From the NCBI GenBank assembly GCA_016287095.1, contig JAEEVK010000003.1, forward strand, positions 21,965 through 85,964: a DNA stretch of 64,000 nt, in the 5' to 3' direction. Both the position numbers and the translations under genes were made by a program. Below the pieces are notes generated by a model that was given only the letters and a program-made list of their open reading frames with translations, made no database searches and was not told where the DNA came from. The stretch comes from Lachnospiraceae bacterium. Lineage in GTDB: Bacteria > Bacillota > Clostridia > Lachnospirales > Lachnospiraceae. This document shows, one piece after another, positions 15,727 through 17,041 of this stretch (its first letter is position 1; each line of letters begins with the position of its first letter).

Positions 15727-16530
15727 ATGCAGAACTTTTTAGAGTATTTAAAACAGCTGGGTACTGATGTAGGACTAAAGATTCTCTTCGGCCTGGTAGT
15801 ACTGTTTGTCGGTATGAAACTGGCAAAATGGGTGGTTAAGCTGGTATCTAAAGGCAAAGGCTTTGGTAAACTGGAAGTAAGTGTTCAGAGTTTTCTGCTC
15901 AGTTTCATAAAGATTATCCTTTATGCGCTTGTTATAGCCAGCGCTGCTATCATCTGGGGTATTCCTACCACTTCGTTCCTTACTATTTTCACCTCGGCAG
16001 GCGTGGCTGTAGGTTTAGCTCTGCAGGGCGCATTAAGTAACTTCGCCGGCGGTCTGATGATCCTGATCTTTAAGCCTTTTAAGGTTGGGGACTTTATCGA
16101 GAACGGTGCAGTTATGGGTACGGTAAAGGATATTACTATCATCTATACCATACTTTATACTGTGGATAACAAGGTGGTTACGATACCGAACGGCACCTTG
16201 ACCAATTCTAATGTTATAAACTATTCTACTCTTCCTTCAAGACGTGTGGATATCAAGTTTAGTGCAGGGTACCATGATGATATTGAGAAGGTTAAGAGTG
16301 TGCTTATGGGCGTGGCTGAAGCTCATGAGAAGGTCTTAAAGGATCCGGCGCCTTTTGTAAGGCTTACCGCACAGGGTTCCAGCAGTCTTGATTATACCTT
16401 CAGAGTATGGTGTGCAGGTCCTGATTACTGGGATGTGTATTTTGATATGATGGAGCGTGTGAAGATGGCGTTTGATGAAAACGGTATCTCGATTCCGTTC
16501 CAGCAGGTGGATGTTCATATGGACAAGTGA
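15727..16530 (+). CDS. mscS: Small-conductance mechanosensitive channel (MscS family)
   Basis: GVAVGLALQGALSNFAGGLMILIFKPFKVGDFIE, VTIPNGTLTNSNVINYS; ATG 15727 after AGGAGGG RBS. Confidence 0.95.
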   Translation: MQNFLEYLKQLGTDVGLKILFGLVVLFVGMKLAKWVVKLVSKGKGFGKLEVSVQSFLLSFIKIILYALVIASAAIIWGIPTTSFLTIFTSAGVAVGLALQGALSNFAGGLMILIFKPFKVGDFIENGAVMGTVKDITIIYTILYTVDNKVVTIPNGTLTNSNVINYSTLPSRRVDIKFSAGYHDDIEKVKSVLMGVAEAHEKVLKDPAPFVRLTAQGSSSLDYTFRVWCAGPDYWDVYFDMMERVKMAFDENGISIPFQQVDVHMDK

Positions 16531-16551
16531 TTTTAGGTAACATTAGATAAC

Positions 16552-16838
16552 GGCTGGGTGGAGTACCCGGTATGTTCTAAAACCCATTACCGCTTAGCAG
16601 GGATATACTAACGGTCATACTCTTATTACGGCTGCGGACGCTTGCAATCACTGCTGCTTCACAGCAGGTCATAAGGAATCTTCCCACTACTTCATAGTGG
16701 GCCCCTCCTTACGACATAGCATCGTATCAAAAATCAGTTTGGTAAACTGATTTTTGCCTTGCCTTCATATTCGTCTGACCGAAGTATATCCGCTGCACGC
16801 TTTATGGTTTTAGCCCATACCGGGTACTCCACCCAGCC
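16552..16838. repeat. Large imperfect inverted-repeat element / candidate structured RNA
   Basis: Perfect 23-nt terminal arms GGCTGGGTGGAGTACCCGGTATG (16552-16574) / CATACCGGGTACTCCACCCAGCC (16816-16838); further paired blocks CTAAAACC, GGATATACT, CGGTC; internal hairpins at 16651-16667, 16683-16701, 16728-16756. Confidence 0.85.
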
Positions 16839-16880
16839 TTGTTACTCTCTTTGTTATTCAATATACATTTTATATTTAAT

Positions 16881-16920
16881 TTTGAGGGTGAAACTGTCTG
16901 CGATGCAGACTGGTGAGGTG
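16881..16920 (+). repeat. Degenerate copy of a short dispersed hairpin repeat
   Basis: TTTGAGGGTGAAACTGTCTGCGATGCAGACTGGTGAGGTG; similar to 53823-53870. Confidence 0.75.
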
Positions 16921-17041
16921 TAAAAAGAGTAATATTCAGTATTGATAATAAAAATCAATGGAAAAATGCAAAAAAAACTTGTAAAATCTTGAAAAGGTGG
17001 TATTATTGTACTATCTTTTTTTTATCAGGAGGTATAGTTTT

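Follow-up and report, generated by a model that had tools for sequence, protein, structure and literature searches.

An undescribed family of long, covarying hairpin repeats in rumen Lachnospiraceae that may work as folded DNA

Introduction

Between the genes mscS and asnS, at positions 16552–16838 of the window (the whole stretch of 64,000 nucleotides analyzed here), lies an inverted-repeat region of 287 nt. A first-pass annotation of this DNA suggested that it could be either an undescribed structured non-coding RNA or a non-autonomous MITE-like element. Does such a structure act as RNA or as DNA? Covariation is usually read as proof of a functional RNA. RNA-motif screens have also picked up structured single-stranded DNA, for example attC-like motifs (PMC8632094), and the roughly 100 copies described here combine near-ideal covariation with the pairing rules of DNA. 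The window hairpin is a real member of an undescribed, multi-copy and strongly covarying repeat family.

Structure of the window element

The 287 nt form one long multi-hairpin structure. Folding of positions 16530–16860 as RNA yielded −146.3 kcal/mol compared with a mean of −78.2 kcal/mol for shuffled sequences (z = −13.8, 0 of 100 shuffles). Folded as DNA, the two strands of the element reached z-scores of −16.3 and −13.7 relative to shuffles. Values this far below the shuffles exclude chance as the origin of the hairpin. The flanking genes belong to the Pfam families MscS and class II (D/K/N) tRNA synthetase, which backs their naming as mscS and asnS. On re-reading the window sequence we found all arms and hairpins where the first-pass annotation had placed them.

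The left outer arm comprises 23 nt (16552–16574, plus strand) and the right outer arm (16816–16838, plus strand) is its perfect reverse complement. Every copy has an arm sequence of its own, which pairs with its partner. Further inward, and likewise given for the plus strand, CTAAAACC (16577–16584) pairs with GGTTTTAG (16806–16813) in helix 1, an A-rich/T-rich box conserved in the family. GGATATACT (16601–16609) pairs with AGTATATCC (16783–16791) in helix 4, the family-conserved GGATATGCT box. CGGTC (16612–16616) and GACCG (16777–16781) form a helix that is variable in the family. The conserved family box GGACGCTTGCA (16637–16647, plus strand) lies at the foot of the apical junction. The apical hairpin CAAAAATCAGTTT-GGT-AAACTGATTTTTG (16728–16756, plus strand; helix 9) is the most conserved one of the family, with 99.9% of its cells paired. 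The element as a whole (16552–16838) is assigned to the minus strand, which is the better-folding one and on which the mismatches are asymmetric, with G-A over C-U.

The remainder of the apex is occupied by a nested second repeat, module X (16651–16715, no strand). It consists of the hairpin CTGCTG-CTTCA-CAGCAG (16651–16667) and the GTCATAAGGAATCTTCCC..GGGCCCCTCCTTACGAC hairpin (16668–16715), which contains GTC..CCCACTA-CTTCA-TAGTGGG..GAC. The CTTCA loop is indeed shared by both window hairpins, as had been noticed; it is confined to the repeat module of a few copies and is not a family trait. In the window copy and in locus L002 module X takes the place of the hairpin with a GGTATCAAGC-type loop found in most copies. 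This nested insert explains why the window copy is 287 nt long in a family of about 250 nt, and why it scores only 126 bits with the covariance model R1 described below. Apart from L002, the module occurs in copy L255 (genome G019), adjacent to a locus resembling Clostridiales-1 (L012) and ahead of a tRNA-Leu gene (L013). It can be described as a small repeat GTCGTAAGGAGGGGCCC..GGGAAGATTCCTTATGAC to which a small hairpin is attached at the side, and at L013 it lies directly upstream of the tRNA-Leu. We also considered the window apex as a fragment of the Clostridiales-1 consensus, but the model alignment shows a separate module. Two copies in genome G001 carry other nested inserts (contig C14, 10120–10404, with the insert in the apex, and contig C35, 15024–15300). 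The apical loop thus seems to be a tolerated insertion site.

The element matched no Rfam 15 family, either in a scan of the window, which returned only a tRNA, or in searches of the copies at relaxed E-values. This agrees with its supposed undescribed status, and the scan confirms the reported lack of a T-box upstream of asnS. A further short dispersed repeat, GGGTGAAACTGTCTGCGATGCAGACTGGTGAGGTGT, is located between the element and asnS (approximately 16882–16929). Similar stretches were seen in several congeners and beside copy L255.

Copies and distribution

A DNA search of the same genome (G000) returned about two dozen diverged relatives, 18 of which were aligned (alignment A1) and used to build the covariance model R1. 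With R1 we detected 30 full copies and short remnants in G000. The copies are dispersed, but they are diverged rather than near-identical (median identity in G000 approximately 68%). Within the genus, nine of 24 genomes, one of them G000, contained copies, with 22 in G001, 22 in G003, 20 in G006, 15 in G022 and 12 in G012 (some partial matches included). R1 found no copies in 37 genomes outside the genus. Among about 250 sampled Lachnospiraceae genomes, weaker full-length matches (50–80 bits) with the same two-hairpin apex were present in three other genera. A scan of 85,462 species with the conserved hairpin gave matches in MAGs only, nearly all labelled Lachnospiraceae and, wherever the title states a source, from rumen or omasum. 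Phage and plasmid collections contained no match to the element.

The outer arm typically extends 19–24 bp past the core and differs in sequence among copies, with pairing kept in each. The inner stems AAAACC/GGTTTT and GGATATGCT/AGCATATCC are conserved together with their internal loops. The apex of the family is composed of a CAAAAATCGGTT..AACCGATTTTTG hairpin and the hairpin with the GGTATCAAGC-type loop. The consensus at the stem borders is ..A|GG on the left and CC|GT.. on the right.

Covariation and pairing rules

Covariance modelling, which had been proposed as a check, revealed very strong covariation. In an alignment of 101 distinct copies, which was fitted to the model structure and whose absolute counts lean towards that structure, 62 of the 65 core pairs showed double-sided changes and 96.0% of the core cells were paired. 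The covariation score was 0.474; shuffling lowered it to 0.159, and slid structures reached no more than 0.079. An alignment of the first 18 copies that used the sequence only led to the same result, with double-sided changes at 50 of 65 pairs. For the least diverged copy pairs, one-sided and double changes were counted at 21 to 7; in more diverged pairs the double changes prevail by about 3 to 1. The one-sided states precede the doubles, which indicates stepwise compensation, by selection or by later correction, and not single-event double changes alone. Instantaneous template switching as the sole source of the double changes was rejected on these grounds. Internal loops and loop sequences are conserved across genera.

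The core pairs are 94.7% Watson-Crick, 1.3% G-U and 0.7% A-C. Counted in a like manner, RNase P RNA of the genus has 12.7% G-U and 0.41% A-C (276 to 9), and 6S RNA, which is also a long hairpin, 17.2% and 0.11% (155 to 1). In tRNAs of the genus G-U amounts to 8.4%. In RNase P RNA and 6S RNA G-U far outnumbers A-C, whereas the element family has 1.3% and 0.7% and so treats G-U almost as a mismatch. The outer arms have 5.2% G-U and 2.8% A-C, the G-U content being higher than in the core. Of the two alternatives in the first-pass annotation the MITE-like one is therefore the better fit, since the covariation avoids G-U and the frequency of A-C reaches about half that of G-U, which sets the family apart from the control RNAs. 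The low wobble content could partly reflect an unusually strong selection for stability.

With both G-U and A-C rare in the element, compared with 8–17% G-U in true RNAs of the genus, the ratio of G-U to A-C is a cheap test which could tell RNA genes and structured DNA repeats apart in catalogues built on covariation. If the DNA-structure reading is true, covariation-based "RNA" families such as Clostridiales-1 (RF01699) would conceal a group of structured DNA elements that can be told apart by their wobble content. Clostridiales-1 is wobble-poor as well (2.5% G-U, 1.5% A-C).

Mobility and the Clostridiales-1 precedent

The family has two properties of MITEs, namely many dispersed non-coding copies (30 full ones in G000; 59 loci among 102 copies) and terminal inverted repeats, here the 19–24 bp outer arms, although their sequence is not common to the copies. 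Target-site duplications, for which the first-pass annotation had suggested a search, were undetectable, with no excess over shuffled flanks. For this reason we name the family MITE-like and not MITE. It is possible that duplications were lost by decay, the copies being old. No autonomous partner was seen among the loci that were read. The sole sign of recent spread is two similar copy pairs in G001 (94.6% and 96.6%).

The Y1 (RAYT) family PF01797, a candidate mobilizer, showed no correlation with the element: it is absent in the element-rich genomes G001 and G003, both incomplete assemblies, and present in the element-free genome G018. Contig C63 of G006 (L254, 3998 bp) was rejected as an autonomous element, as there is no transposase among its open reading frames. 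Both ends of this contig break within an element apex. Its reading frames resemble by sequence a putative cytosine methyltransferase and a restriction endonuclease, probably a restriction-modification pair, and a lipoprotein-like protein. At four loci of G001 (L155, L157, L158 and L162) the right flank holds a short repeat resembling GGTGACAAACGGAACCGTCCCC, approximately 9–13 nt away from the copy.

Genome G013 contains nine Clostridiales-1 copies (L312–L320) of 205 bp each, which differ by only 0–3 bases. Eight of the nine are flanked by direct repeats of 5–6 bp (one of 16 bp), compared with 4 of 72 mismatched flank pairs used as a control. Near-identical copies with target duplications indicate that the Rfam Clostridiales-1 "sRNA" is recently transposed DNA in this genus. 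The mobility of Clostridiales-1 as DNA in turn supports the DNA reading of a wobble-poor structured repeat.

Comparison with known systems

Clostridiales-1 (PMC2864571) has several traits in common with the element: it is multi-copy and intergenic, has variable but paired stems and wobble-poor covariation, occurs in the same genus, and one such locus shares the nested module X. It differs by its three-hairpin layout of approximately 166–205 nt, without sequence or model match to the element, and by its recent mobility in G013 with 5–6 bp target duplications, which the element family lacks. The RF01699 covariance model matched neither the window nor the copies; only L012, the locus with module X, scored (45.2 bits).

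Bacterial MITEs such as ERIC, NEMIS/Correia, YPAL and RUP (PMC2229807) are also short dispersed repeats without coding capacity; they form long stem-loops and lie mostly between genes and close to gene ends. Typical MITEs keep the sequence of their terminal repeats and leave target duplications, whereas the present family combines private arm sequences with a conserved architecture and no visible duplication. REP/REPIN palindromes, mobilized by RAYT transposases (PMC3116915, PMC3733652), are thought to act as folded DNA and carry a short unpaired motif by the stem, comparable to ..A|GG-stem-CC|GT.. of the element. REPs, however, measure 20–40 bp, have conserved stems and bear a tag, GTAG or CGTC, while the element is branched, about 250 nt long and has merely the A|GG..CC|GT flank consensus in place of a tagged short palindrome. 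Integron attC sites resemble it in that structure rather than sequence is conserved, and their folded strand is recognized as DNA, as that of the element may be. The element is much longer and was not seen in cassette arrays, and no RYYYAAC/GTTRRRY ends were noticed when its ends were read by eye.

Proposed explanation

We propose that the repeats are an undescribed MITE-like family in rumen Lachnospiraceae which works as folded DNA and is mostly old and immobile, a reading to which we give an even chance. The relevant form would probably be the long hairpin that DNA, chiefly its minus strand, adopts when single-stranded or extruded. In an ancestor the copies may have been spread by a putative recombinase or transposase acting in trans on the folded strand, and insertions right after stop codons would have been tolerated. 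The present copies would be mostly immobile, and pairing in their stems would be preserved at the level of DNA, whether by selection for the hairpin, by template-switch correction during replication, or by both. In favor of this explanation we count the dispersed copies with their common architecture, the stepwise and wobble-poor covariation, the independence of the mismatch asymmetry from the transcription of the neighbors, the missing promoter enrichment, the Clostridiales-1 precedent and the sites, such as the one between mscS and asnS, that are occupied in some species and empty in others. We count against it the missing target duplications and autonomous partner, the lack of correlation with Y1 transposase genes, the loci shared between species, the inconsistent strand preference and the 5.2% G-U of the arms. 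The maintenance of pairing at fixed loci also weighs against it, as it suggests a function beyond past transposition.

A second possibility, which we hold to be less probable, is a DNA-structure element in which the long branched hairpin is kept at fixed loci by Watson-Crick-only compensation, with selection on the folded DNA near gene ends, for example as a binding site for a recombinase, a replication factor or a nucleoid factor.

Strand preference

Within the genus, 99 of 101 copies have the minus strand as the better-folding one, although the copies share ancestry and are not 101 independent tests. Its mismatches comprise 120 G-A and 19 C-U, about half of the G-A cells being in one variable helix where the alignment is least certain. 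In remote homologues the strand preference is not uniform, and the choice of strand is therefore tentative. No enrichment of sigma-70-like promoters was found upstream of the copies.

These data bear on a multi-copy structured non-coding RNA which would be made from the minus strand and preserved because selection acts on its fold; this appears unlikely to us. The very strong covariation, the conserved loops and internal loops, the better-folding minus strand, the excess there of G-A over C-U and of G-U over A-C, irrespective of the direction of the neighbors, and the loci common to several species would all suit such an RNA. Evidence against it is provided by a G-U content of just 1.3% with A-C about half as common, so different from RNase P RNA, 6S RNA and tRNA of the genus, as well as by the missing promoter enrichment, the loss of strand preference in remote homologues and a terminator-like hairpin with a U-tract in the middle of the element.

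Genomic location and locus history

A stop codon faces the right end of the element (the minus-strand 3' end) in 78 of 102 copies, at a distance of at most 18 nt in about 47 of them. Only three copies are located between divergent genes. After merging the copies by locus, the order of the location classes remained unchanged (24, 15, 10 and 3). The neighbors are housekeeping genes, e.g. flhB-flhA, infB-rbfA and trpS, named from their sequence without a family search. The 102 sampled copies of the genus fall into 59 loci, 26 of which are common to two to five species, and for most sampled copies the same locus is occupied in another species.

This placement, the shared loci and a conserved AAAAATCGG..CCGATTTTT hairpin that is terminator-like in both directions would fit a cis-acting element at mRNA 3' ends with a role in stabilizing the upstream mRNA or in stopping transcription, perhaps from either side. 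We consider such a role quite unlikely. Structure and mismatches favor the minus strand even where the read-through mRNA carries the plus strand; the asymmetry of the mismatches does not differ between the two cases, and this indifference to the transcription of the neighbors argues against selection on host mRNA. The same genes lack the element in some congeners, a terminator needs less than 250 nt of conserved architecture, and REP and MITE repeats gather at gene 3' ends too without having such a role.

The mscS-asnS site itself is without the element in G009, G003 and G007; in G022 it retains a remnant that has lost the apex, and in G001 it is occupied by a full copy bearing a different nested insert. 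The arms of apex-deleted remnants are still nearly perfect. This persistence, the Watson-Crick-only pairs with both G-T and A-C rare, as DNA-level correction would leave them, and the known ability of template switching to create and maintain hairpins (PMC8794818) could speak for a dead MITE in which such quasipalindrome correction alone keeps the arms perfect, with neither function nor selection, but we hold this to be improbable, because correction should erase the internal loops, which are conserved across genera together with the loop sequences, because one-sided changes precede a gradual rise of doubles as selection too would give, and because the G-A/C-U asymmetry is not predicted.

The MITE-like reading remains the one that we prefer. 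A junction search for exact empty sites gave matches only in diverged intergenic regions beside rnpB. In G000 (contig C42), G006 (C28) and G022 (C42) the gene for RNase P RNA is preceded by an element that ends approximately 15–30 nt upstream of it, while other congeners have no element there. The arm of the element may overlap the rnpB promoter in these three species.
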